Positions 10,053-64,000 of a stretch of DNA of 64,000 nt are shown here, in pieces. The notes below the pieces were generated by a model. It was not told the DNA's origin. It searched no databases and saw only the letters and a program-made list of their open reading frames with translations. Position 1 is the stretch's first letter; the number at the start of each line of letters is the position of its first letter. Origin of the DNA: Cinnamomum chago. Taxonomy: Eukaryota > Streptophyta > Magnoliopsida > Laurales > Lauraceae. Location: contig CP142454.1 in NCBI GenBank assembly GCA_038049695.1, positions 14,746,001 to 14,810,000 on the forward strand. The letters are read 5' to 3'. The position numbers and the translations under genes were made by a program.

Positions 10053-10063
10053 CAGCAAGAGAT

Positions 10064-10136
10064 GCGCCCGTGGCCTAATGGATAAGGCGCTTGACTTCTA
10101 ATCAAGCGATTGTGGGTTCGAGTCCCACCGGGCGTG
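10064..10136 (+). tRNA. tRNA-Arg (anticodon UCU)
   Basis: A 73-base cloverleaf can be folded by eye: acceptor stem GCGCCCG with CGGGCGT (first pair G-U), D arm GCCTAATGGATAAGGC, anticodon stem CTTGA/TCAAG with loop CTTCTAA, and T arm GTGGG-TTCGAGT-CCCAC. The loop gives anticodon TCT, which decodes AGA. There is no intron. The A box (TGGCCTAATGG) and B box (GGTTCGAGTCC) are intact, so it should be functional. Confidence 0.97.
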
Positions 10137-10144
10137 AATGTTTC

Positions 10145-13090: not shown

Positions 13091-14268
13091 CTGCAGATGT
13101 TTATCAATCAATGAATAGTAAATGATACTTGTATAGTTAAAAAAATGTAAATAATCTTTTTATGAAACTGAATGGAGTGAATCTAAATTTTCAATTGTTG
13201 TTATGAAGAGAAAAAAAAAATCTGAATCTTTAAGGAAAGGTTTTAAGTTGGAGAGATAAGTTAGCATGAACTCCTTTACAAGATAATGGAGTGGGACTAC
13301 AGATTTTTTCAACTCCAATGCAATAAATTCAATGTTTTTTTTTTTTTTTTCGGGTGGGGGGAGGTTGTCACCAAAAATAGATTTTGCTGTGGCCTAAGAG
13401 GGGGGAATGGATGGACCCGAAGACCATCCACATAGCCAATTATGAATCAAGTTAAGGTGGGCTGAGAGGACCGGCTAATCTGTTAGGATGGCATGTGTGA
13501 CATGGGAACAAAGGATTGCATTATCCTCGTAGATTTACAACAGCTCACAAAGATTTACAAAATGGATAATCGGTTCAAGCTGGATTTTTCATGGGATAGC
13601 CTAATATTAGTGTGTTTTCTAGTGTTTTTTTATTTTTCTTGGAATTTTTCCACTTCAATTGGCAAGATCTTTACCCTGCTCAATAGTTTGATAGTTTTCT
13701 CACTAGTTTCTCATGAAACTTCACAAGGAATTTTATTCCAAACTCTTCATGGCTTTATATTTTATTTCATAGGACAAAAAAAAAAAAAAAACATTGCATT
13801 CAGATTTTTTTTATACTTAATGACTAATCTCATTAAATTTTGATAATCTTGATTTAATACTTTAAAAAAATTATTTGTCAAGGAAATATAAAACTACCCC
13901 TTGTATAATTGTTGATATACATGAAGAAGTTGTCTTCCCCACTACAAGGATGCCCCTCATGAGAGGAGAAACTTTTTTTTTTCTTTGCTGAGAAAAGGAG
14001 AAACGTTTTTAAGATTCGGATTGCTTGAGCCTTTCTAAAAGAAGACCAAGATTCCCTCCTATTTCTTTTGTCAGTAATTTAATCAGATTGTTTTTTTTTT
14101 TAAATTCAAACTAAGACCCATAGTTTTTTTTTTAATCTCTATCCTTACTATTGATGCCCCAAAGTTCTGGATTCGTTCATCAAATTCAAGTGGCCCCACA
14201 AGTATTCTAAATACAAATAGTAACCAATCCCTTTAATCCGCGAGTAGACCATTTTTTTCAGCCCTCTC
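13091..14268. other. Intergenic, nothing recognised
   Basis: AT-rich sequence with several homopolymer A and T tracts (for example near 13335-13350 and 13777-13790). No gene or element ends are visible. Confidence 0.5.
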
Positions 14269-14451
14269 TGTAACGACACCAAACCCGGAACCCTGACATG
14301 ATATTGTCCGCTTTGGGCCTCGGCCCGCGCAGATTTATTCCTTTGTAGCTGGCCCGCAGGCTGGCCCCAAAACACGTCATACCAAGTCAAGGGGGGTTCG
14401 CACATATAAGCCCGAGATCTGTGCGGTCTCTTGGCGATGTGGGATCTGACA
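14269..14451 (-). repeat. TRIM LTR 1 (divergent subtype, 183 bp)
   Basis: It shares the termini and the central segment (TGTCCGCTTTGGGCCTCGGCC on the plus strand, in part) with the other four but is clearly more diverged and shorter. It represents a different subfamily or an older LTR. Confidence 0.85.
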
Positions 14452-14498
14452 ATCCCCACCACTCAGAGGAGAGCTGCCCTTGGCTCTGATACCATTTC

Positions 14499-14712
14499 TG
14501 TAACGACCCGGCCCACCTGGTATAATATTGTTCGCTTTGGGCCTCGGCCTGCACGGTTTTGTTTCTTGGATCGGGCCCGCAGGCATTCACATCCAAAACG
14601 CGTTATACCAAGTTAAGAGGGGCTCGCACATATAAGCCTACTCTTCGGGCGCTTCTTAAGCGATGTGGGATTGGGTTCCCTGCCTTACTCTCGGCTGACC
14701 CGGGTTCTTACA
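14499..14712 (-). repeat. TRIM LTR 2 (214 bp)
   Basis: Full-length LTR. The minus strand contains the segment CCCACATCGCTTAAGAAGCG and a TATA-like CTTATATGTG. Confidence 0.92.
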
Positions 14713-14759
14713 ATCCCCACCACTCAGAGGAGAGCCGCCCTCGGCTTTGATACCATTTC

Positions 14760-14972
14760 TGCAACGACCTGGCCCACCTGGTATAATATTGTCCGCTTTG
14801 GGCCTCGGCCCACACGGTTTTGTTTCTTGGATCGGCCCACAAGCATCCACATCCAAAATGCGTTATACCAAGTTAAGAGGGGCTCGCACATATACGCCTA
14901 GTCTTCGGGCGCTTCTTAAGCGATGTGGGATTGGGTTCCCTGCCTTGCTCTCGGCTGACCCGGGTCCTTACA
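14760..14972 (-). repeat. TRIM LTR 3 (213 bp)
   Basis: Full-length LTR nearly identical to LTRs 2 and 5. Its plus-strand start is TGCAAC rather than TGTAAC, a single transition. Confidence 0.92.
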
Positions 14973-15019
14973 ATCCCCACCACTCAGAGGAGAGCCGCCC
15001 TCGGCTCTGATACCATTTC

Positions 15020-15167
15020 TGTAACGACCCGGCCCACCTGGTATAATATTATCCGCTTTGGGCCTGGCCCGCACAATTTTGTTTCTGGATCGGGCCTGCA
15101 GGCATCTATATCCAAAACACGTTATACCAAGTTAAGAGGGGCTCGCACACTGACCCGGGTCCTTACA
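15020..15167 (-). repeat. TRIM LTR 4 (148 bp, internally deleted)
   Basis: It lacks about 65 bases, including the TATA-like segment and the CCCACATCG motif, but keeps both termini. Confidence 0.9.
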
Positions 15168-15214
15168 ATCCCCACCACTCAGAGGAGAGCTGCCTTCGGC
15201 TCTGATACCATTTT

Positions 15215-15428
15215 TGTAATGACCTGGCCCACTTGGCATAATATTGTTCGCTTTGGGCCTCGACCCGCATGATTTTGTTTCTTGGATCGGGCCCGCAGGC
15301 ATCCACATCCAAAACGCGTTCTACTAAGTTAAGAGGGGCTCACACATATAAGCCTAGTCTTCGGGCGCTTCTTAAGCGATGTGGAATTGGGTTCCCTGCC
15401 TTGCTTTCGGCTGACCCTGGTCCTTTCA
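15215..15428 (-). repeat. TRIM LTR 5 (214 bp)
   Basis: Outermost LTR on the right. Its right terminus reads TTTCA in place of TTACA, followed by the putative target duplication CTCTC. Confidence 0.9.
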
Positions 15429-15433
15429 CTCTC

Positions 15434-18400
15434 CCTCTCCCAAAATCAAGTGGTTGAACTCTCTTACTCTCTTCTTTCTACTCTTAACATATTTCCACCT
15501 ACTTTCATGCATTTTAATTTATTTATGTTTGCTGATGTAATTTTCTCTGGTTTGATGACTATTTAATTGGCTGAACTATTTTTATTTAGTTGATATTGTA
15601 ATAAGATATACTGTTGAATGTTAAGTACTTATATATGTTTGTCATTTGATATAAATTTTTTATTGTATTTAGGGATGTAGATCTGGTCGACGTTTGATTA
15701 ATATTTTATATCCATGTCAATTAGTTTGAATTGTTCAACATGAAGTTGTGGGGGTCTTTAAATAGATTTTGACAAAGAGAAAACTGTGTGGATTGGCTAT
15801 TTTGTGGGAGATGATTAGGATTTATTTGATCTGGACTCTTTTTCTTTCTCATGCAAGTTACCATTCAAGTGGGCCATGTTGCTATAATGTTCATTTGTTT
15901 CTAGTTTCTAAACTGTTCACTCATTGATAAATTGATTTTAAAAAGAGATGCAATAACGATAGTACTTGCTATGCATTTTACAACGTTAGTTATTTGTTAT
16001 GTTATTATCTTACTTTTTTTCTTTTTTATTTTTTAAATTTAGGTCCACCAAATGCTTTTAAAAATAATAATTGGAGTTTTACATTGGAATCATTAGAAGT
16101 CAAGCTCTAGACTCCTTGATTCTAAGTGCTTCCCTTCCAAGTCTTGCTATTATCTTTTTCTATATATTTCTTTTCTATTGCTGCATTTTTGTTTTTAATA
16201 GTATATCTTGTTTAACTGTTCCTAGATCTAAACATCATCTAAAAAAAAAATGATTGCAAATTTTAACTGATTTTTCAAAAAAAAAAAAAACCCCATATTG
16301 TAAAATGAACTGGAACAAAACCTAACAAATCCAATCAAAATATATGAAGATTTTCACACAATTCTGTCAAGAAATTACCTCCAACGATCTTCAAAAGATG
16401 GGAAATGTCTATTGTGTTTCTCACGAAATTCCACAAACAGAAAGAAAATGATACAAATTAAAGAGAAGGCAAACAGACACTATAATAGAAGGAGAGAGAG
16501 AGAGAGAGAGAGAGAGCAGACTTTTTAAATGAATAACAACATGCAAAATCTACTTCTACAGTTCTACTTTCAATTTTCACATGCGTAGGATGTCTTGGTG
16601 CTTTTAAAATGTACTTTCGGCGACTGAGAGTTAATTAGTGTGCTGGTCATATTAAAAGCTTTAAACGGTCGAAGATGATCAACCTTTAATGGAATGATAT
16701 TTTACTAAGTCATTAGTTTGATTGAAATTTGAATCCACCATAAAATAGAGAATGTAAAAAAGACAGCTTTTATTTGTATGCTTTGTACATGCTCAATTTT
16801 ACCGTGTGTCCAACACCTGTTGCAGTCAAATTGGCAAAATCTCATCTAAACTTTCAATACGGACCGAACCCAACCCACTATGGTACTGTTTTAGACCAGT
16901 TCCCTCACCCATGGAATGCATGACCGAGAGACCTCCTGCCTTAATTTTCCATTAGCCCAATAACCCGTACTTAGCACGATATCTCCATGCACTGTAAAAT
17001 AAATAATCATATACTAAAAAAAATTACCTCTTTCCATAGGACAATTTGAATAAAATAGAAATAAAGAAATTGGAGCAAAAATGATATAATTACATAAGAA
17101 CAACTCAAACATGAGTGGTTTGAAGAAAAAATGAGTGGTTAGTTGCATGAGTAGTTTACATAACCATCGGTCAAAATTATAACCAACGGTCAAAATTGAG
17201 GCCAAAACCTTCTAATTTAATATATTATAATTTGTTTTTAGACATGCGTTGTATGTGACTGTGAGATACCAACATTCAACTCGATCTACGATGCTTTTTT
17301 TTTTTTTTTTTTTTTTGTAAAATTAAGTGTGGATTGAGCGGGTTACGAGTGCTAACTTTGGCCCGACCTCTCTCTCTCTCTTAAATGGAAATCGGCCAGC
17401 ACAAAGACACTCTATCAGTTCCCATTCGAATGGAGGAATCTCGAGTGCTGCTGATCCAGACATTCTATCTTATGGGTCCCGCAAATGATGTGAATATCCC
17501 TAAAATACCTAGGTGAAAGATTCCAACACCTATATATATATGCAAGGTTTAAATCCCTGAGCTAGAAATGCACATGGTCCACTCACGTAGATGTTTTGAT
17601 CGATGCACCGTGGGCCACACATGTTGCTTTGGGGAGGATAGAATAGAGAGGATAGGGCTGGCTATGGGCCTGTTCAGGCCAAACACAACCTGAATTTCAG
17701 TAAATTGGGCCGAATAAATGTGATGGATCGATGGCTATGCTTATTTCACAACCCCACGATTGTTTTCTGCCTCGCCTACTGCCCGACGATTGACTATGCA
17801 CTTTTCCTTTTTAAGTCATTGAAATTGTGGGCCGTTTATCTAGGGCTAGGATGATCAAGTGGACCCCAAACATGGTAGGACCCCAAACATGGTAGGGATG
17901 TACAACCCCTCGGATCTTCCAATCCCCAAGGAGGGGCGCTCCAGGGGGCGCATGTTAATAAAATAGCAACAACAATAATAATAACAACAACAAACACATT
18001 TGTTTAAGTAATATACATCCACTGGAAATTAAAAAATAATAATAATAATCTTTCTTTCCATGCATTAAATGAAAAGCCATAGAAACTAACCAGGGAAAAA
18101 AAAATGTTAAAATGATCCATAGTTAATACCAACATCAAATGTATTCTAATTATAATTCTCTTATTTGGAGAAAAAAAGAAAAAAAGGGGATTTTTCTATT
18201 AACATAAGAAATATAAGTATAAATAACCTAATAATTAGACATTCAATACATGCATCAACTACCCTCAGAAATACATACAGGAATGTAATAAGCATCCATC
18301 CATCCAACATCCACACATATCATGCATTCACCACTAAACCACGCCAAAAATGAAAAATAAATTCATAGAGCACCCAAAAAATGCAAGCAAAACAACTAAA

Positions 18401-18969: not shown

Positions 18970-20157
18970 TCAAAGTGTGGACGAGTAAGGAGGGATTGCA
19001 ATCCATAAAGGAGGTGACCAGATAGGATGAAATCGATCCACAAAAAGTTGCTCAACAGTTCCATCCTCGAGGCTATAGACACCCAAATCACAACATCCAT
19101 ATGGATTAGTGCAATAACTTTCCCTATAATTGTCTGCAAAATATATGCAATTTCCTTTGAAGCCCGGGAATTGGCTAGCCATGACATTAATGGAAGAATT
19201 ATACCCCAAAAAGAGTACTCGGTCGCCTAAGCTTTCCACCTTGGCAGACTCTTTCAGCGTTCTATCATGTGCCCCCTCTTCCAAAGTTACCCCGTAAATG
19301 TCAAAATGGTGCGTTTGGTGAAGCTTGGATTCTCCGGTATGTTCGATTAACTCTATATCTCTAATAATCACAAACATGGTATCAGTCAACATGTCTGGCA
19401 CCAAATAACCAAAGAACGTACCGTGAGGATTCAAATCCATGGTCAGTTTTTCACCGTGCGGATTGATGGCTTCTTCCTCAATGTGGAGAAGGTAGATTCC
19501 TGCTTCCACACTAAGGGCATAAAACTGCCCCTTGTGATATATCACGTCTTCCGTCATCACATCAAGCCCGGACTCAATCTCAGTATAAGCGTCATCTCCA
19601 ATTCTGCAAAAGGCCAAAAGTCCAACTCCGTAGATGACCACCACAACTTTGCCATCATCTGATAGGGCTGCCTTGGTTATGTGGTGGTCGCGGATCCATT
19701 CCATGGAGTTGTCTCCCTCTTCAAAAAGCTGGTTTTTGAATTTGGACTGGTGAGGTAGGTCGAATTTCCTTTTAGACCAAGGATGAAAGAGACATATATC
19801 CAACTTGTCGTCCACAGTCATCAGCCACCCGTTTTGGAAAGACCCACAGCAGCGCTTCCCACGCATCTCCGGGAGACAAACGGCTTGGGTCGTCTTCTTG
19901 AAGAGACTAAAGAAAAGGCGAGTATCTGGATCTTGTTCTTCTTTTTCTTGTTTGTTGTTGTTGGGAAGCAACATGAGCCAGGGCAGTTCGCGTTGAATGC
20001 TCTTCTTTAAAACCGAGCGCCATGATTTGCATACGAACTGCATTCTAAGAATGCAATCAGGTGTAAAGCAAAAAGTGGAAATTCTCTCCAACAGATCCTG
20101 AGGAAGATCGACCCACTTGTTGGCTTTTTTTTCTTTCATCTGTTCGCAGTTAGTCAT
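18970..20157 (-). CDS. F-box / DUF295 (KIB-like beta-propeller) protein
   Basis: A single-exon gene of 395 codons. Residues about 15-60 form an F-box (WVDLPQDLLERIS, then VCKSWRSV), the module that binds Skp1 in SCF ubiquitin ligases. The rest, about residues 80-370, matches the plant DUF295/KIB domain, with phrases such as GSFQNGWLMTVD, LFHPWSKRKFDLP, YHKGQFYALS, LGDRVLFLGYNSS and GNCIYFADN typical of its propeller blades. The DUF295 family is large and fast-evolving in plants and most members have no known substrate, so a target-binding SCF adaptor role is inferred. A second ATG at codon 7 is an alternative start. A TATA-like element lies about 150 bp upstream. A broken copy lies 12 kb away at 31181-32302. 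The frame is intact here, so this copy is the probably active one. Confidence 0.92.
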   Translation of the reverse strand: MTNCEQMKEKKANKWVDLPQDLLERISTFCFTPDCILRMQFVCKSWRSVLKKSIQRELPWLMLLPNNNKQEKEEQDPDTRLFFSLFKKTTQAVCLPEMRGKRCCGSFQNGWLMTVDDKLDICLFHPWSKRKFDLPHQSKFKNQLFEEGDNSMEWIRDHHITKAALSDDGKVVVVIYGVGLLAFCRIGDDAYTEIESGLDVMTEDVIYHKGQFYALSVEAGIYLLHIEEEAINPHGEKLTMDLNPHGTFFGYLVPDMLTDTMFVIIRDIELIEHTGESKLHQTHHFDIYGVTLEEGAHDRTLKESAKVESLGDRVLFLGYNSSINVMASQFPGFKGNCIYFADNYRESYCTNPYGCCDLGVYSLEDGTVEQLFVDRFHPIWSPPLWIAIPPYSSTL

Positions 20158-20302
20158 AACAGATGCAACAAATATGAGAAATCAAAAGGAGTATAATATA
20201 ATTATTAGATATCAGGAAGAGAAGAGAAAGGATGAATGGCTACCAAGAGCTGGGAAAGAAACATACAAGGGTTTGCAGAGTCCGTCGCAAGTCGTGCTAT
20301 AT

Positions 20303-24903: not shown

Positions 24904-25050
24904 ATATTTTGGTTTTGGTAATGTGGGGTTTGAAAGGCTATAAAAATTAGAAGCCCCTTTCCTCCGCATGGGTAGGTAAATTTATTCGCTTATTTTGTTT
25001 TAAATTTCTTAAGTATAAACATTCTTGAAAGTGCTTTGTTGAATCACAGA

Positions 25051-25473
25051 ATGTCTGAGCAAATACAGAAAGATTGGATGGACGAAAGAAATAGGAGGTC
25101 CACACTTTATGAAGATGGGGTTAGGCATTTTGTTCTTTTTGCCCAAACAAAGTTGGGCGGGTCGGCTTGTCCTTGCCCATGTAAAATCTGTAGGAATAGG
25201 TTCCGATTGATATACGAGGTGGTTGAAGATCATTTGATCGCAAACGGTATAGATCTCTCATACCGTGTATGGGTTTTGCATGGTGAAAGACGCTCGAAGA
25301 CTCTGATGGAGCATCCAGTGGTGGGAAACATGAATAATGAAAACATTGAGGAAGAAGGGCTTGGAATAGGGGACCTTGTTGATGCTTATATGGGCTGCCA
25401 TGGTACTGAAACAGGAGATATTGAACCACCATTTGTTCCTGAACCAGACTTGGGTAAAAAGAATCACTTGTGT
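25051..25473 (+). pseudogene. CACTA transposase-associated domain, truncated
   Basis: The frame after the ATG at 25051, which also lies directly behind a possible acceptor CACAG, reads DWMDERNRRS, then a cysteine cluster CPCPCKICRN, then VVEDHLIANGID and YRVWVLHGE. This order (aromatic/basic start, Cys-rich centre, HL-x-x-GI, W-x-x-HGE) is that of the transposase-associated domain at the N-terminus of plant En/Spm proteins. The main catalytic transposase region is missing because the element is cut at about 25474. It can act only as a defective relic. Confidence 0.85.
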
Positions 25474-25474
25474 T

Positions 25475-26152
25475 TTTCTTTGTCAATACAAGTGATTCTT
25501 GGGCAAATGTGGCACTAGAAGGAAAGCTAGAATAAGTTCCATTCTTGGCCTGCAGGCTAGTCAATCCCAGCTCAATTACCTGGGATTTCCAATGGCTTTT
25601 GGGGCTCCTAAATGCACTCATTTCCTCCCTCTGCTGGACTCCATCAATTGTAGACTGACTGCTTGGAAAGCTAAGTTCCTCTCATTCGCTGGTCGTCTAA
25701 TCCTAATCAAGCATGTCCTATCCAGCATTCCTATGCACCTAGCTTCCATCCTCCCCCTTCCAGCTACTATCTGTAAAGGCATTGAGCGACTGATGCGTCA
25801 CTTCCTTTGGTCAGGCAATTCCCCCTCCTCCAAAATTAATCATGTCAGCTGGTCTCAAGTAACTCTCCCTAAGCAAGAAGGAAGGCTAGGCATTAGGAAG
25901 ATCTCTGAAGTAAATGAAGCTTCTCTCTTAAAGCTGGGCTGGCAAGCATCTACAACGAGTTCAATCTGGTCTTCCTAGTTCAGGAGTAGGTACTTCAAGA
26001 GCACCTCCATCTGGAATCCAGCTAACACCATCTACGGGTCATGTATTTGGAAGCGAATTAGACGTCTCTCTCACTTCATCCACCAGGGTAGTGCTTGGTC
26101 GTTTGGCAATGGAGAGAGTATTAATACATGGCACGACACTTGGCATGGACAC
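25475..26152 (+). pseudogene. LINE reverse-transcriptase-region remnant, first part
   Basis: The frame from 25499 carries phrases typical of the C-terminal part of plant L1-type ORF2: LNYLGFPMAFG, WKAKFLSFAGRLILIKHVLS, RLMRHFLWSG and EGRLGIRK. The element is 5' truncated, so endonuclease and RT palm are absent, and the frame stops at 25978. It continues in degenerate form to 26152, where a solo LTR interrupts it, and resumes at 30110. The junction with the CACTA element holds a 13-bp inverted repeat. Confidence 0.85.
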
Positions 26153-29100: not shown

Positions 29101-30109
29101 AAATTAACAATTACAAATTGTAGAGACACTACAATGCCCATCCATCAATGTCCATTTCATCCAATCAACACAACTAGGCTCAGGTAGAATTCTAAAACTC
29201 AATAATCACAAATCATGAGATGAAACCATAGAAATCAAAGGAAACCACATACATTCTATGTTAACAGTAGGTGCACTTGCCTTAATAATGGAGAGAAGGT
29301 TTGTAGAGAGAGATAATCAGCTACAGAAGTTCCCAGGTGCAGAAAGGATAGGGGAAGAAGATGATGTAGCAACTGCTGCCCCTTAATGCAAGAATCCCAG
29401 CAGTGACAGTAGCTCCAAGGAAAGAAATTCCCAGCCCAGAATCAGTCCCGTTCAGCACACAGTAACAGTAGCTCAAGGGGAAAAATGAGAGAGGAAGGAG
29501 AAGGAAATGAAGAAGAACAATGGCTGCAGCAACAGCTTGGAGGGAGGGGAAATGAGAGGAAACCAGAGTGAATAAAGAGGGAAGAAGAGTAGTAGCTGCA
29601 GCTGCAACAGTCGTTTGGAAGAGGGAATGAGGGAGCAGGGAATTAAGATGAATAGTGGCTGGCTTAGGTTTAGGGTTTTTGGGAATGGTGCTAATTTATA
29701 GATTAGGGGGAAGTGATTAAAGACAAGTTTAGCCCTTGGGTTATCATGAAATTAGGGTTAGGGTTGGGGTTAATCTGGTCTTTTGGTAGGAAGCTTCTAG
29801 AGAGGGGCACCTTTTGCACTAACCCAACCTAATTTAATTAATTACCCCACACTAATAGCCTAGGATTAACGCAACACCCAACTAATTAAAAATACTAACC
29901 CACTAAGCTAGTCTAACTAACTTAGGAAAAATCTAACTAATCTCTCTATCAACCCCTAATTAGCACAAATAAATAGTAATTAGCTATAATTAGCAAATAT
30001 TAGCAATAATTAGCAAAGATTAGCATAATTAACCAATAATTAACATAAATTAGAATTAATTAGTCTATAAAATAGCAATTAGAGGGCCCACCAAGGGCGG
30101 GACCTCACA
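26153..30109 (-). mobile_element. Solo LTR of a Ty3/gypsy-type element, about 3.96 kb
   Basis: On the minus strand it begins TGTGAGGTCCCGCCC and ends GGGGCGTTACA. The 5-bp flanks GACAC and GAGAC match at 4 of 5 positions. No coding sequence and no repeat of one end at the other is present, so it is a single LTR left by recombination. A TATA box (CTATAAATTAG, minus) at 29691-29701 followed by AAACCCTAAACC and a CT-rich leader marks the minus-strand transcription start and so the orientation. LTRs of this size are known in the Tekay/Del branch. It splits a LINE. Confidence 0.8.
29691..29701 (-). promoter_or_regulatory. TATA box of solo LTR promoter
   Basis: CTATAAATTAG on the minus strand is followed about 20-30 bases downstream by AAACCCTAAACC, a motif often seen just after plant transcription starts. 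Confidence 0.65.
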
Positions 30110-31034
30110 GAGACAAACCTCTCTCGGCAGTCTTCCCCACTCTGAACTTCCCTCCTGACCAGCGGCTTTCCTCTTTCTTCCACTCAAACGCTTGGCACTT
30201 CCCTCACAGCCTTCCTGCTCCAATTCGTGATCTGCTATCAGCTGCAACTACTCTTCTCTCTCCCAGCCCCTCGGATAGTGATCAGCTCCACTGGAAGGAG
30301 GCCACCGATGGAAACCTGTCTCAACAACATGCTTGGGAGACCCTTAGAGTGAAAGGCTCTGTTCCCCTTTGGCCTCCGCTGATTTGGAATGGCATTTCCC
30401 AGCCAAAAGTCTCCTGCTTCGGATGGCGCTTGATGCTAAAGCGCACCCCTACTGAAGATCGTCTACAACACCTGGGCTTCTCCCTAGCTTCGAGATGCAA
30501 TCTCTACTTCAAGGAATCAGAATCTGTCAACCATCTTTTCTTCTCCTGCAACGTAGCCCAATTAGTATGGCATTGGCTGCTCCAATCCTTAAAGGCCAAT
30601 CTGCCCCCCCCCCCCCCCCCCCTACACTGCATCTTCTATCTGGACATCTATCACCAGAGACAACGACCAATATGGCAAGATCATTATGGCCTCTATTTTC
30701 CTTTCAGCTCTGCATTCTCTCTGGAAGTCCAGGAACTTAGCCACCTTTGAAGGCAAAAATACCCCCCTCCATCTTCTCTTGGCCCAGCTGAATGAAGTCC
30801 TCTGCTACTCTCTAAGGAAAATATCAAAGCCTTTTGTTAGTCTTCAGCTCAACTCCCTCATTGATTTTTTGCATTTAGAGGCTCTCTCAGCCTCTTAGGC
30901 CTCTGTTGTAGCACTGGCATTTTTTGTTTTTGGGCTCTTTCTTCTTTCTTTGTTCTTTCCTCCTTCTGGAGGCCCTGTGAATTTGTATCTCCTTTTTCTT
31001 TTTTCAATACAAGTACCATTATACAAAAAAAAAA
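30110..31034 (+). pseudogene. LINE remnant, second part with RVT zinc-binding domain and poly(A)
   Basis: The frame near 30349 shows the zinc-binding domain that ends plant LINE ORF2: PLIWNGISQPKVSCFGWRLM, then RCNLYFKESESVNHLFFSC and VWHWLL. A C19 run at 30604-30622 disrupts reading. The 3' end is TTTTTTCAATACAAGTACC followed by a short A tract at about 31025-31034, the tail of the insertion. The next base starts the sequence shared with the F-box gene 3' flank, so the LINE inserted at or near the edge of that duplicate. Confidence 0.85.
30604..30622. repeat. C19 homopolymer
   Basis: Nineteen consecutive C inside the LINE coding remnant. Confidence 0.9.
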
Positions 31035-31180: not shown

Positions 31181-32302
31181 TCACATAATTCTTCCAATCC
31201 ACAAAAGAGGCGACCAGATAGGATGAAATCGATCAGAAAAATGTCGTTCAATAGTTCCATCATCGAGACTATAAACACCCAAATCATGGCATCCATATGG
31301 ATGCGTGATATAACTTTCCATATAAGTGTCTCCAAAATATATGCGATTTCCTTTGAAGCCCGGGAATTGGCTAGCCATGATAATAATGGAAGAATTATGC
31401 CCCAAAAACAGTACTCGATCGCCTAAGCTTTCCTCCTTGGTTAACTCTTTCAGAGTTCTACCTTGTGCTCCCTCTTCTAATATTCTATCCTGTGCCCCAT
31501 CTTCCAAAGTGACGCCGAAAACGTGAAAATGGTACGTTTGGTGTTTAAGGGGTTTGTCGGTATCTTCGATAAAGCCTATATCTCTAATAATCACAAACAT
31601 GGTATCAGTCAACATGTCCGGTACCAAATAACTAAAGAACATACTGTGACGAGGACTCAAATCTATAGTCAGTTTTTCCCCGTGGGGATTGATGCCTTCC
31701 TCGATGTGGAGAAGGTGGTTTCCTGCTTCCACACTGAGGGCATAAAACCTCCCCGGACTTCCGTCATTGCATTAAGCCCGGACTCGATCTCAGTATACGC
31801 ATCATCTCCAATTCTACAAAAGGCCAAAAATCCAATTCCGTAAATGACCACCAAAACTTTGCCATCGTCTGATAGGGCTGCCTTGTTTATGTGCCCGTCA
31901 CGGACTCTTCCATGGAGAAGTCTTCCTCTTCACAGGGCTGGTTTTTTAGTTTGGACAGGTGAGGTAGGTTGAATTTCCTTTTAGACCAAGGATGAAAGAA
32001 ACATATATCCAACTTCTCGTCCACAGTCATCAGCCACCCGTTTTGGAAAGACCCACAGCAGCGCTTGCAGCGCATCTCCGGGAGACAAACGGCTTGGGTC
32101 GTCTTCTTGAAGAGACTAAAGAAAAGGCGAGCATCTGGATCTTGTTCTTCTTCTTCTTCTTCTTCTTCTTTGTTGTTGCTGGGAAGCAACATGAGCCAGG
32201 GCAGTTCACGGTGCATACAAACTGCATTCTAAGAATGTAATCAGGTGTAGAGACAAAATTGGAAATTCTCTCCAACAGATCCTGGGGAAGATCGACCCAC
32301 AT
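31181..32302 (-). pseudogene. Broken copy of the F-box/DUF295 gene
   Basis: It is about 88-90% similar to 18970-20157 over the whole length, including both flanks (31036-32480 matches about 18810-20290). Visible lesions: a 34-bp deletion in the F-box near 32213 (removing the KSW..SI region and shifting frame), a further shift near 31900, a deletion of about 13 bp near 31755, and an altered C-terminus that stops early. The remaining open pieces are 109 and 183 codons. A (CTT)n expansion at about 32147-32170 lengthens a Glu run. No intact product can be made. Confidence 0.9.
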
Positions 32303-43000: not shown

Positions 43001-45461
43001 TATTTTACTTTGCTTTGTATTTGTTTCTTATATTTTTTTGTATGGAAAGAAAATATAGACACCTCATCTTGCAATAAGTGGCTGTACTTTTCAAGAAGAG
43101 AATTGACTTTGAAAATATAGCTGTACAAAAGAGAACACATTGATAAAATTCCACAACTTCTATAAGACTATTAGACAATAAAAAGCAAGTGTTTAGAGAG
43201 CAAGAACAAAATAAAATGTAAAAATTATCTCGGCAATTTATCAGGAAATGAATAACAATTTTGGAGGATTACAAACAAAAACAATGGCTTTAAAAACATG
43301 AGGCATAATTTTGGAACAAGATTTGCATTCCCTGTAGCTATGGGATTCAGGTAGCTCCTCTCAAGTTCAGTTCATAACAATCTACTCTTAATGCGTAACT
43401 AGAAATCCCTAGGCACTACAGCGGGAAAAAAACAGAAGTGGCATAGTTTTGGGAACTATTGCACCTAAACTCCCCATCACCTAACAATTTCAGGAAGCTC
43501 ACTTGAGTTGAAATCATACCAATAACTCTTGGCAAGAAAGCCCTAATTATGAATACCTGCTAGAAGATTTCTATGATCATGCATTAAGAGAAGTTTCTAC
43601 AATGGGCTTATGTGGATATTTTCTAGTACATAGATCCATTTCAACATCAATGATCAGACTAATTATACAATTTAAGTCCAAGACAGCTACTTCTTTGCCT
43701 TTTTTTTACTACATAAGTATCGATTCTTTGCCAAATTATTTAGTATATTTCCAAAATTCTATCAATTTACTTTTGGAATCTATTCTTTCTCAGACATATG
43801 TTGGTAAAATTAGACACTTCCATGTTCAAACAAGTGAAAAAAAAAATACTAGAATACCGCTATAGATCATAATCAACAGTCAACAATACAATCACAATTC
43901 ACTGATATGCATCAAAGAGAAACAAAGAAACTCCCAATCCAATGCAAAAGCATGTAAACCAACAACTAGAGATTTAAATCAACAACAACAACAAGAGGAA
44001 AGAGATGTGATCATTACCTGACGCAGAGGGTGATCCTTGGGAAGATAGCTTCCAATTGTCTTACCATAAACTTCACAAGTAGAGAAGTGAATTAGGCGCT
44101 TGTTGTTCTCAGAGCAGTACTTCACCTGCAATTCACCATCATCAACATCAATGTCACCCACCATTCACAAAAAAACTTTTTTTCCATATCTAACTGGAGA
44201 TATTTTCCCTTAAGATTGATAAACAAGAAAAAAAAAAAAATACTTCATACACATCATCAACCAAGATGAGACATTTCAACTACCTATACAAAAAACAACA
44301 GTCTACACTCTACACCACACCACCACCGTCACATCATCCTACTAGAAAAAAGATCTCAAATATCAAAAACCCTATCCATTCATGGAGAGAGACCTTTCCC
44401 CATCCCAACCACATGATTCATCATCCTACTAGAAAAAAGATCTCAAATATCAAAAACCCTATCCATTCATGGAGAGAGACCTTTCCCCATCCCAACCACA
44501 TGATTCATCATCCTACTAGAAAAAAGATCTCAAATATCAAAAACCCTATCCATTCATGGAGAGAGACCTTTCCCCATCCCAACCACATGATTCATCATCC
44601 TACTAGAAAAATGATCTCAAATATCAAAAACCCTATCCATTCATGGAGAGAGACCTTTCCCCATCCCAACCACATGATTGGTCATGCGGATCCCGCAGAT
44701 TCCACATCACGGCACAAAATCCCATCTTTTCTTTCCTAACCGTTGATCAACAATCTGATCTACACACTACACAATCCCACAATGGGCCTGTGCCCAACAG
44801 ATCTACATCACCGTCAAAAAGGAACGGCAGCCGTACAGATCATAGATCCTCTCGGGCCCGTGCATTGGACGCTCCACAACAATACATCTTCCTTGCAATG
44901 CAAGAAACCACAAATTCCCAACAAATTCAGAGAAATTAATGTTAAAAAAAAAAAACAAAAGAAACGGAACCCTACCACCGGAAGCGCGTCGATGAAGTTG
45001 CTGTAAATAGTATCAAGCGGCCGCGTATTGTAGTCCGCAGGAGTACAGATCGCAGCAAGATTAATAGTCTGACGCAAAACAAATTAAAAAGAGGATGATT
45101 GACGGGACACCAGATCTACATTAACGAAACGAAAGAGATTTGCAGAGATAGGGAAAGAGAGAGAAAGAAAGAGAAAGACCAGATCTGCCATCTTGATGAG
45201 TCCCTCGAGTCTTGAATCATGCTTGATGTTGATTCGATGGAACTGGATCCTGTCTCCCCAAGGCAAGGCCGGATCGGACGAACCAGGCTCAAGTAGGTGC
45301 CTGATCTTGTCATTGTAGACATCAACGGCCAGGATCTTGTGCTGCGTCTCGGACAGCAGCTTCTCGCAAAGGTGCGACCCTATGAATCCCCCTGCCCCGA
45401 TCATGCAGATCGTCATCGGCTTGATGGGTCGACCGTCCAGATCTACTCTCGCACCCGCCAT
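40077..45461 (-). CDS. AXS: UDP-D-apiose/UDP-D-xylose synthase, nine exons, complete
   Basis: This NAD-dependent cytosolic enzyme decarboxylates UDP-glucuronate and rearranges it to UDP-apiose, also releasing UDP-xylose; apiose is needed for rhamnogalacturonan II and apiogalacturonan. Exons in coding order: 45461-45180, 45068-44976, 44125-44018, 41697-41583, 41386-41253, 41167-41066, 40977-40885, 40795-40660 and 40192-40077. They total 1179 nt (392 residues plus TAA), close to the usual 389. All borders are GT..AG and phases agree. Visible features are the dinucleotide-binding GAGGFIG near residue 23, the Y-x3-K catalytic pair in WSYACAKQL, and the conserved GPRMDFIPGIDGPSEGVPRV and IFNVGNPNNEVTV. 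The protein looks functional. Its introns hold transposon pieces, an 87-bp minisatellite and a duplicated end of exon 4. It is a member of the extended short-chain dehydrogenase/reductase family. Confidence 0.97.
41446..41614 (-). repeat. Tandem duplication of the 3' end of AXS exon 4 plus its splice donor
   Basis: A unit of about 84-86 bp occurs twice (about 41446-41531 and 41532-41614). The upper copy contains the true exon 4 end (AKQLIERLIY and G|GTAATATTAC). The lower copy repeats the same codons and donor inside intron 4. The copies differ by only a few bases. Confidence 0.92.
42011..42100 (-). mobile_element. tRNA-derived SINE relic in AXS intron
   Basis: On the minus strand an A box TAGCACAGTTGG (plus-strand 42082-42093) is followed by a B-box-like GGGTTCAAGTC (about 42040-42050). 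The B-box half matches the relic at 5829-5905. Confidence 0.55.
42187..42230 (-). mobile_element. Helitron 3' end in AXS intron
   Basis: Plus-strand CTAGCACAACAACCCATGCT and onward is, reversed, a CCCGTACTAAGCATGGG hairpin followed by about 10 bases and CTAG next to A. This is the clear Helitron 3' signature. The 5' end of this element was not found. Confidence 0.6.
42908..43135. mobile_element. Possible MITE in AXS intron
   Basis: CTTTTGTACAGC at the left is perfectly inverted as GCTGTACAAAAG at the right (near 43120), and a further inverted copy GTGGCTGTAC lies near 43080. No target duplication is evident. Confidence 0.35.
44332..44679. repeat. 87-bp minisatellite, four copies, in AXS intron
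   Basis: Four head-to-tail units of exactly 87 bp start at 44332, 44419, 44506 and 44593 (CATCATCCTACTAGAAAAA at each start). Copies are almost identical. Because 87 is a multiple of 3, the plus strand keeps an open frame through all units, which is a by-product and not a gene. Confidence 0.95.
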
Positions 45462-60340: not shown

Positions 60341-60610
60341 TGATTCTGAGGAGGCTGGTGCGAGGACCGGAGCCTTGGGGAGCTGGTCCTATGATCGAAC
60401 TCAAGGAGGCTGGTGCGAGGACCGGAGTCTTGGGGAGCTGGTCCTATGACCGAACTCAAGGAGGCTGGTGTGAGAGCCGGAGCCTTGGGGAGCTGGTCTT
60501 GTGACCGAACTCAAGGAGGTTGGCGTGAGAGCCGGAGCCTTGGGGAGTTGGTCCTATGACCGAACTCAAGGAGGCTGGCGTGAGAGCCAGAGCCTTGCTC
60601 ATAACTCAAA
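60341..60610. repeat. 55-bp tandem repeat, about five units
   Basis: Units start at 60341, 60396, 60451, 60506 and 60561 with exact 55-base spacing (CGAACTCAAGGAGG.TGG and GGAGCCTTGGGGAG.TGGT). The array lies between the integrase end and the antisense gene, a region where Tat elements often carry tandem repeats. Confidence 0.93.
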
Positions 60611-60689: not shown

Positions 60690-61862
60690 GACGTGCGCAG
60701 CATTTCATGGTCGTGGCAATTCTTTGTCATCCATCCCCTCAAGTCTGTAGGCCGACCTCCCTGAGACCGAGACCAACTTGAAGGGGCCGAGCCAGTTTGG
60801 TGCGAGTTTGCCTTCGTTAGGTTTTTTATCTGCTGGAAGCGCTCTTTTTAAGACTAGTTCTCCAACTGAGAATCTTCTTTCTTTGACCATCTGATTGTAT
60901 CCTTTGGATAGCTGCTGTTGATAAGAGGCCAAACGCACGGATGCCGCTTCCCTTCATTCCTCGGCCAGAACGAGCTCTCTGGCGAGGTTTACCTCATTCT
61001 GCCCCTGATCGAAGAGATCCGTCCTCAAGATTGGGAGGCCGACCTCGAGAGGGATTACAGCTTCCATCCCGTAGGCCAATGAAAAAGGAGTTGCCGAAGT
61101 GGATCACCTCGGGGTGGTTCTGTACGCCCAAAGGACACTTGGCAACTCTTCGACCCACCTACCTTTAGCCTTATCAAGTCTTTTCTTGAGTCCGTCCAGG
61201 ACCACTTTGTTTGAGATCTCTGCTTGCCCGTTGCTCTGTGGGTAGGCCGGAGTCGCATAGAGGTTCCTGATATCGAGCTCCTGATAGAAGTTTTTGAAGA
61301 AACTTGAATCGAATTGGGTCCCGTTGTCCGAGACCAGAGCCCTAGGGATCCCGAACCTTGTGACGATGTTCTTCCACACAAAATTCTTCGTGTCGTGCTC
61401 GGTGATGGAGGATAGGGCCTCTACCTCTATCCATTTTGTGAAGTAATCGGTGCCCACCATCAGCCACCTTTTATTTCCTGGAGTTCGGTGAAGAGGTCCC
61501 ACGATGTCCAGCCCCCATTGAGCGAAGGGCCACGGACTGGAGAGACGACTCAGGTCCCGAGCTAGCTGATGCAAGGAGTGGGAGAACTTCTGGCATTTTT
61601 CGCACTTTTTGGCGTAGAGCTGGGCATCTTTCTGCATGTAGGGCCACCAATAGCCCTGGCTAATAGCTCTGTATGCCAGTGACCTTCCTCAGATGTGGCT
61701 TCCACAGATTCCTTTGTGGATTTCAAAGAGGAAGTCTTCCACCTTGCTTGGATGAACGCACTGGAGATATGGTCCTGAGTAGGATTTTCTATAGAGCTTT
61801 TCATCCGGGGATAACCAAAAGTGAGCCGCTTTCATCCTGACTTTGTGAGCTTCGTTCCTGTC
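60690..61862 (-). pseudogene. Integrase of the Tat element, broken
   Basis: The core catalytic region (61637-61104) has KKCEKCQKF at the end of the zinc finger, then the D-D-35-E residues in WGLDIVGPL, VSDNGTQFD and NGQAEIS; the spacing of 35 between the second D and E is exact. The C-terminal part (60938-60705) reads WLGPFKLVSVSGRSAYRL. In-frame TGA codons occur upstream of the zinc finger (about 61690), directly after the core (about 61105) and near 60945, so no full integrase is made. Confidence 0.88.
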
Positions 61863-62446
61863 CTAAGGGAGCTTATCTTCTTTCAAGAATGCCAGGATTG
61901 GATCCATCCAGCTTGGTCCGAGATCAGCACATAGGATTTGCCGAGCTGGAAGTAGCTCTATGCTTGGTTTTTCCAATGTCCCTACATCAATTGTCCTCCT
62001 TTTCCCTGCTTCTATGGCCGAGGCTAAGTTGGCTAGGGCGTCTGCGTGGCAGTTGGATTCCCTGCCGATTTGCCTGACTTCAGTTTTCTCGAACTGGGAG
62101 AGGAGCTCTTTTGAGTGGGCTAGATAGGCCGCCATTCTTTCGTCTCAGGCTTGATAATCTCCGCTCAGCTGGTTCGTCACCAACTGGGAGTCGCTGAAGA
62201 CTACAAGCTGACGTGCCCCCAATATCCTTGCACTACCGAGACCCGAGACCCGCGATCAGTGCTTCGTACTCCGCTTCATTGTTTGATGCTTTGAAGTCAA
62301 GGGTCAGTGCTTGTTCTATGACTAGTCCTTCTAGGGATTGGAGGACTACGCCGGCGCCTGCTCTCCTGGATGTTGAAGATCCGTCGACGAAGACTTTCCA
62401 AGCTGACTCAAGGAATTTTTTCCAGGACTGGTCTTCCTCGGCCTAG
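61863..62446 (-). pseudogene. Second (archaeal-type) RNase H of the Tat element, broken
   Basis: The minus strand shows KVFVDGSST, FKASNNEAEYEALIAGL and then LVVFSDSQLVTNQLSGD, followed by RESNCHADALANLAS, the catalytic D, E, D and D-type positions of an RNase H fold. A stop separates it from the first RNase H, a small frameshift lies near 62250 and a stop near 62145. A duplicated RNase H is diagnostic of the Tat lineage. Confidence 0.82.
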
Positions 62447-63870
62447 GTTTCGACTCCATTATTGCCCTTGGAGCCCCCCAGTTCGGTATCGAGCGAGGTC
62501 GGTGCCGAACTAGGAGAGGTGAATTCGACGATGAAATCTGCTAGGACCTGTGCTTTGATCGCCGTTCCGGGTTGATATCGGATGTCGAATTGCCCTAGTT
62601 CGACGGCCCACTTGGAGATTCGGCCAAAAAAGTCCACCTTTCGAAAAAGGGATTTGAGTGGGTATTCCGTGACAACTATTACCGTGTATGTCTGTAAGTA
62701 GTAGGATAGCTTACGAGAGGCGGTGATGAGTGCCAGTGCTAGCTTCTCAAGTGGCAGGTACCTGGTCTTGGCATCGAGCAAAATCTTGCTTGTATAGTAA
62801 ATAGGTTGCTGCTGCTTGTCGTTCTTTCGAACTAACACCGAGCTTACCGCATGGTCCGAGACTGCGAGGTAGAGGTAGAGGAGATCACTTGGTGATGGAG
62901 TGGACAATAGCGGTGGTGAAGAGAGATACTCTTTGAGTTTTTCCAGTGCTAGATCACACTCGGGAGTCCATTGAAATTTGAAACTCTTCTTCAGGAGCTG
63001 AAAGAAAGGGCGGCACTTATCCAAGGCCCGGCTGATGAAGCGATTGAGGGCGGCAGCCATCCCTGTGAGCCTCTGGACCTGCTTGACCGAGCTCGGGCTC
63101 TGAAGTGCCTGGATAGCTGCAATCTGCTCTGGATTGGCCTCAATCCCTCTCCTGGTCACCAGGCTTCCTAGGAACTTGCCAGAATCGACGCCAAACGCAC
63201 ACTTGGAAGCGTTTAGTTTGAGCTGGAACTTTCTGAGGACGGTGAATGTTTGGCATAGGTCAGCCAAATGGTCCTGTGACTTTTTGGACTTGACCACCAT
63301 ATCATCAATGTAGACCTCCATTGTCCTCCCGAGCTGGTCCTGAAACATCTTCGTGACCAGCCTCTGATATGTCGCCCCGACATTTTTCAACCCAAAGGGC
63401 ATCACCTTATAACAGTAGATGCCTCGAGGTGTTATGAATGCAGTTTTTTCTCCATCAGGCCCGTGCAGTGAGATTTGGTGGTAGCCTCGGTAGGCGTCTA
63501 AGAAGCTCATTCTGTCATGCCCCGAGGTGGCGTCGATCATCTGGTCGATCTTTGGGAGGGGAAAACTGTCCTTAGGACAGGCCTTGTTGAGGTCGGTGAA
63601 GTCCACGCAGACCCTCCACTTACCATTCTTCTTCTTCACCACCACTGTGTTAGCCAACCACTTTGGGTAGTGCACTTCGCGGATCGCCCCAGCCTCGAGG
63701 AGCTTGTCGACTTCTTCGAGCACTGCCTCTGTTTGTGGGACTCCTGTCCTGCGGGCATTCTGCACCACGGGTTTGTGTCCGGGATCAACATTCAGCTCGT
63801 GACACATGACTTCGGGGTTGATCCCGGGCATCTCATATGGAGTCCAAGCGAAGACGTCCTTGTTTTGCAA
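62443..63870 (-). CDS. Reverse transcriptase and first RNase H of the Tat element
   Basis: An uninterrupted frame of 475 codons. The RT part holds VCVDFTDLNKACPKDSFPLP, DAYRGYHQI, VMPFGLKNVGATYQRL and the catalytic box YIDDMVV; the connection and RNase H region follow (LYLYLAVSDHAVSSVLV, LPLEKLALALITASRKL). Upstream, the same frame has a stop near 63910 that separates it from the rest of the polyprotein (which continues as RINPPDPERYFLLG). It is therefore part of a broken polyprotein although this stretch is open. Confidence 0.93.
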   Translation of the reverse strand: MQNKDVFAWTPYEMPGINPEVMCHELNVDPGHKPVVQNARRTGVPQTEAVLEEVDKLLEAGAIREVHYPKWLANTVVVKKKNGKWRVCVDFTDLNKACPKDSFPLPKIDQMIDATSGHDRMSFLDAYRGYHQISLHGPDGEKTAFITPRGIYCYKVMPFGLKNVGATYQRLVTKMFQDQLGRTMEVYIDDMVVKSKKSQDHLADLCQTFTVLRKFQLKLNASKCAFGVDSGKFLGSLVTRRGIEANPEQIAAIQALQSPSSVKQVQRLTGMAAALNRFISRALDKCRPFFQLLKKSFKFQWTPECDLALEKLKEYLSSPPLLSTPSPSDLLYLYLAVSDHAVSSVLVRKNDKQQQPIYYTSKILLDAKTRYLPLEKLALALITASRKLSYYLQTYTVIVVTEYPLKSLFRKVDFFGRISKWAVELGQFDIRYQPGTAIKAQVLADFIVEFTSPSSAPTSLDTELGGSKGNNGVET

Positions 63871-64000
63871 TAGGAAGTCTAGTAGCTCGGCCCTCTCATT
63901 GTTGGGGAGCTAGCTACCCAGCAGGAAATAGCGCTCGGGGTCTGGTGGATTGATTCTGATTTCGGTGAGATCTTCGACGCTCTTCTGCCCCGCTGTCTGT

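Follow-up and report, generated by a model that had tools for sequence, protein, structure and literature searches.

The 64-kb stretch of DNA analysed here, hereafter the window, contains a TRIM array at 14269-15428 on the minus strand, in which five LTRs alternate with four 47-bp spacers. The question raised by this locus is whether the array was inserted as it now stands or was put together from parts of different origin.

Anatomy and classification of the array

An earlier note had placed the structure at 14264..15433, and this range is correct for five LTRs and four spacers lying between two copies of CTCTC. Read from one window of one assembly, the left CTCTC, an apparent copy of the target-site duplication (14264..14268), is followed by LTR1 (14269..14451, 183 bp), spacer 1 (14452..14498), LTR2 (14499..14712, 214 bp), spacer 2 (14713..14759), LTR3 (14760..14972, 213 bp), spacer 3 (14973..15019), LTR4 (15020..15167, 148 bp), spacer 4 (15168..15214), LTR5 (15215..15428, 214 bp) and the right CTCTC, which lies within a CT-rich stretch (15429..15433). 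All LTRs and spacers are on the minus strand, and the order in the sense of the element is LTR5, spacer 4, LTR4, spacer 3, LTR3, spacer 2, LTR2, spacer 1 and LTR1, with LTR5 as the 5' and LTR1 as the 3' outer LTR. LTR1 is divergent and is named A-type here, and LTR2 to LTR5 are named B-type. The junctions between LTRs and spacers are clean and all units have the same orientation. Tandem Repeats Finder reported a period of 260 over 14441-15149 with a score of 1222, indicating that the repeat structure is not due to chance. The consensus of LTR2 to LTR5 starts with TGTAAGGACCC and ends with GTCGTTACA. Compared to LTR3, LTR4 has lost 64 bp, including a TATATG string that is kept by the other four LTRs and that we infer to be the promoter TATA box; LTR4, which had been described as deleted, is thus shortened and not missing altogether.

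Each spacer, or internal domain, starts with four bases followed by a primer-site 13-mer, TGGTATCAGAGCC, and ends in the purine-rich tract GAGTGGTGGGGAT. The 13-mer, which we take to correspond to the 3' terminus of the initiator methionine tRNA of plants, is exact in three of the four spacers and carries one mismatch in spacer 2, and the purine-rich end, which contains three Ts, is the same in all four. The spacers do hold a primer site of the tRNA-iMet type and a purine tract, as the earlier note had claimed. Its description of the four domains as identical holds for their length, which is exactly 47 bp in every case, but not for their sequence, since any two of them agree at 43-46 of 47 positions and none is identical to another. 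A conserved hairpin in the spacer was not supported by the z-scores of the four spacers (0.67, -0.35, -1.28 and 0.35). At 47 bp, the spacer is shorter than the published ones that we met (67-72, 85 and 122 bp), which are a set of encounters and not a survey.

By its anatomy, the array is a tandemly arrayed TRIM (TA-TRIM), a non-autonomous plant LTR retrotransposon of an already published kind. As in other TRIMs, its short LTRs flank an internal domain that is likewise short and non-coding and that carries a primer site and a purine tract. With five LTRs alternating with four internal domains, it exceeds the minimum of three LTRs in a TA-TRIM. Among the frames of at least 110 aa that were scanned, a single one overlaps the array; it had no Pfam match, and its translation gave no match at E values up to 10. 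A search of Rfam over 14100-15600 at E values up to 10 returned four matches, all below the gathering scores and none of them to 5S rRNA, tRNA or a hammerhead, and the only tRNA found by ARAGORN in the window is at 10063-10137. Cassandra and Helenus were rejected as identities of the element because these searches revealed neither 5S rRNA nor tRNA in the LTRs, and a retrozyme because no hammerhead was among the four Rfam matches. With blastn, the array had no second copy anywhere in the 64 kb of the window, and exact patterns had no copies in viral contigs or prokaryote genome contigs, collections that are not expected to hold plant nuclear DNA. When words of the LTR sequence were searched in literature text, one match was obtained, in a Neisseria paper, and no paper in the searched collection combined the wording 'retrotransposons in miniature' with 'Lauraceae'.

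Divergence of LTR1 and decay of LTR2 to LTR5

Among the ten LTR pairs, LTR1 and LTR5 show the lowest similarity by each of three measures, with 67.0% identity in the MAFFT alignment, 74.8% over 131 shared columns and a K2P distance of 0.302. In the same alignment, LTR1 shares 67.0-72.2% identity with each of LTR2 to LTR5. The substitution spectra also differ: C>T or G>A changes account for 8 of 37 differences between LTR1 and the LTR2-5 consensus and for 28 of 35 within LTR2-5 (Fisher p=1.3e-6). In this test LTR1 settled three tied sites of the consensus; when these sites were dropped, the shares were 5/31 and 22/29, respectively (p=5.4e-6). The number of differences counted for LTR1 (32, 37 or 31) varies with the alignment and the handling of ties. 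The consensus CpGs are kept at 10 of 14 aligned positions in LTR1, and at 15/16, 12/16, 8/11 and 11/16 in LTR2, LTR3, LTR4 and LTR5, respectively. The spectrum opposes LTR1 being a decayed B copy, and LTR1 instead looks like a member of another subfamily; together with the low identity, it lends support to the earlier description of LTR1 as a different subtype.

We also looked at LTR2, the neighbour of LTR1, as a possible chimera of A-type and B-type sequence. LTR2 has the base of LTR1 at only one of the 32 sites where LTR1 departs from the others, and a visible A/B chimera was thus rejected; the body of LTR2 gives no sign of a crossover, as it contains no A-type block. LTR1 and LTR2 have the LTR end GTCGTTACA in common. 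Spacer 1 differs from spacer 3 at two positions and spacer 4 differs from it at three; spacer 1 is thus no further from spacer 3 than spacer 4 is, and the A-type spacer is not picked out by its sequence.

The four B-type LTRs look nearly simultaneous in origin. They contain three parsimony-informative sites, one for each possible tree, and the three quartet trees, which were compared by likelihoods only, lie within 0.21 log units of one another; their internal branches measure 0.002-0.005 and their tips 0.026-0.069. When LTR1 was added, the five-LTR tree grouped LTR3 with LTR5 at weak support (73/0.806) and this pair with LTR2 at less (73/0.535), so that a star-like relationship of LTR2-5 is not proven. 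Such a relationship is compatible with one burst of formation, either by concatemeric insertion or by fast unequal exchange, both of which the sequences fit alike.

The decay in LTR2-5 is of the deamination type and affects both strands (G>A 16, C>T 12), and the substitutions from the consensus number 6, 7 and 7 in LTR2, LTR3 and LTR4, respectively, and 15 in LTR5, the most among the four. Relative to spacer 3, the other three spacers carry six differences, all of them G>A. Strand-biased editing, which such a pattern could suggest, was rejected in view of the two-stranded changes in LTR2-5, and we treat the G>A changes of the spacers, which are few, as ordinary decay of methylcytosine.

Origin of the array

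A normal cycle of reverse transcription uses one template for both outer LTRs, and a newly inserted element carries them as identical copies. In this array, the outer LTRs are the least alike and LTR1 appears to be of another subfamily, suggesting that the array in its present form probably did not arise by a normal one-cycle insertion. Outer LTRs that resemble different subfamilies thus make a case against such an insertion from sequence alone. Sabot and Schulman 2007 (PMC1950507) recognised template-switch complexes by highly similar outer LTRs together with flanking duplications, and told them apart from recombinants, in which the outer LTRs differ and flanking duplications are lacking. The array studied here combines outermost LTRs of the lowest similarity among the ten pairs (67.0%) with CTCTC on both sides, in a CT-rich flank. 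Insertion of the whole present array as a unit via template switching, one proposal of the earlier note, is contradicted by this low similarity. The two mechanisms that it named, template switching and unequal recombination, are compatible with the star-like pattern of the LTR2-5 block, but template-switch insertion does not suit the array as it stands.

The CTCTC that had been read as a shared target duplication does stand directly at each end of the array, but it carries less weight as evidence than had been stated, because of the 46 five-base words in the 50 bp next to the array on the right, four read CTCTC, one of these being the right-hand copy itself. For random pairs of five-base words, one from each 50-bp flank, a match has p=0.0033, and for 25-bp flanks p=0.0091. 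In such a CT-rich flank, the match may be coincidental. We regard the matching flanks as the weaker of two opposing signs, the other being the dissimilarity of the outer LTRs, although the match need not be due to chance.

Based on these data, we favour, with a probability of about 0.6, an origin in which the four-LTR B block came from one burst, the A-type end was joined to it afterwards by DNA recombination or gene conversion, and the copies then decayed independently. We infer the order of events, the mobilisation in trans and the site of joining as follows. Reverse transcriptase and integrase would be supplied in trans by an autonomous element, the array itself contributing a primer site and a purine tract in its 47-bp internal domain and the promoter and ends in its LTRs. 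The B-type block (LTR5-LTR4-LTR3-LTR2) would have formed in a single brief burst, either when a concatemeric cDNA inserted or when unequal crossing-over proceeded rapidly. To this block the A-type end, consisting of LTR1 and perhaps the adjoining spacer, may have been joined after integration, when the locus recombined with, or was converted by, an element of another subfamily. The join probably lies in a short, well-conserved stretch made up of the LTR end and the primer site, since GTCGTTACA is common to LTR1 and LTR2 and the spacers vary little. Thereafter, the copies would have decayed mainly by C-to-T changes on either strand. The flanks form a counterpoint to recombination: a simple crossover between neighbouring insertions should give unmatched flanks, but the flanks match, so that either the CTCTC match is a coincidence or conversion must be invoked.

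Stepwise unequal crossing-over, by which the array would have grown unit by unit from a single element, is a doubtful alternative that nonetheless fits the uniform orientation and the clean LTR-spacer junctions, and unequal crossing-over has been proposed for tandem members of Wukong in the accessible part of PMC4528315. Slow growth of this kind predicts nested similarity within LTR2-5, against which the informative sites are spread one per topology, and LTR1 would be left unexplained.

It is unlikely that the whole five-LTR array represents one insertion of a concatemeric cDNA formed by template switching between two subfamilies, with an intermolecular second strand transfer giving rise to unlike outer LTRs. 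Such an insertion would account for the 5-bp CTCTC at both flanks and for the star-like LTR2-5, and an intermolecular second-strand transfer is suggested by HIV-1 database sequences in the accessible text of PMC5651808. It would require a non-standard transfer, the second transfer being generally intramolecular according to the same text, and the four template-switch complexes on record were known by similar outer LTRs (PMC1950507), whereas the outer LTRs here are the least similar pair. A joint reading, in which no working internal domain known is shorter than this one of 47 bp and the array derives from a heterodimeric TRIM cDNA of two subfamilies, with intermolecular second-strand transfer and hence unlike outer LTRs, appears improbable; if the heterodimeric cDNA were true, TRIM concatemers would be a record of the co-packaging of different RNAs.

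That the array is part of a satellite not made by retrotransposition, as its period of about 260 bp could suggest, is very improbable, as its units carry LTR-like ends, a primer site and a purine tract, and it is short and bounded, with no other copy within the 64-kb window by blastn.

Known tandem elements and other features of the window

Tandem TRIM and LTR-retrotransposon arrays are common, and whether they originate by insertion or recombination is still called open in the available text of PMC11899658. Tandem TRIM arrays were found in 129 subfamilies and in 35 of 43 genomes by Gao et al. 2016, among them a maize array with five LTRs, four internal domains and a single target duplication, ATAAT (PMC4717578, as far as its accessible text goes). 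By description and not by sequence comparison, this maize TA-TRIM resembles the array studied here: it is non-coding and has as many LTRs and internal domains, and its 5-bp target duplication has an apparent counterpart in CTCTC. Two LTR subfamilies within one array appear to be a feature of the present locus, and the accessible part of the same paper contains no mention of this for TA-TRIMs (PMC4717578).

Wukong, a maize TRIM, has members with 3, 4, 6 and 7 LTRs, which were attributed to recombination (PMC4528315, in part). Compared by description and not by sequence, it is like the present array in its LTRs of 230-232 bp, its multi-LTR members and its TGGTATCAGAGCC primer site, and differs in its spacer of 67-72 bp, as opposed to 47 bp here (PMC4528315 and PMC8003530, both in part); in the accessible part of PMC8003530, the primer site of a Wukong copy includes the string TGGTATCAGAGCC. 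Cassandra arrays of 13 LTRs were detected by PCR, and they too consist of LTR and internal domain in tandem, with recombination and template switching both discussed for them. Different from the present array, which has no 5S match and whose units differ, Cassandra LTRs contain 5S rRNA sequence and no differences among the repeat units were observed by the authors (PMC7215508, accessible part). The template-switch complexes of Angela, Squiq and Opie share with the present array more than two LTRs and flanking 5-bp repeats. They have three LTRs, belong to far larger elements and have highly similar outer LTRs, in contrast to the least similar outer LTRs here (PMC1950507).

Other repeats and mobile-element sequences were also found in the window. 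At 44332-44679, an 87-bp unit is repeated four times in tandem, nearly perfectly (99% matches), and its copies resemble each other more than the TRIM array's units do; a 55-bp repeat is present in 4.5 copies at 60349-60597. An LTR retrotransposon, Ty3/gypsy-like by our reading, is represented at 61107-63909 on the minus strand by its reverse transcriptase, RNase H and integrase domains. A transposase-associated domain (24976-25515) and a zf-RVT domain (30076-30747), both on the plus strand, are likely remnants of mobile elements. Among the chosen frames scanned, the nearest identified gene to the array is an F-box/KIB1-4 gene at 18973-20181 on the minus strand, whose best relative, the first of 63 proteins, is from avocado (Laurales, Lauraceae), with 73% identity over 94%, followed by other avocado and Cinnamomum proteins. 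Judged from this one gene, the DNA probably comes from a Lauraceae-like plant. A second gene of the KIB1-4 F-box type, at 31184-32228 on the minus strand, occupies two separate open frames and appears to be disrupted.
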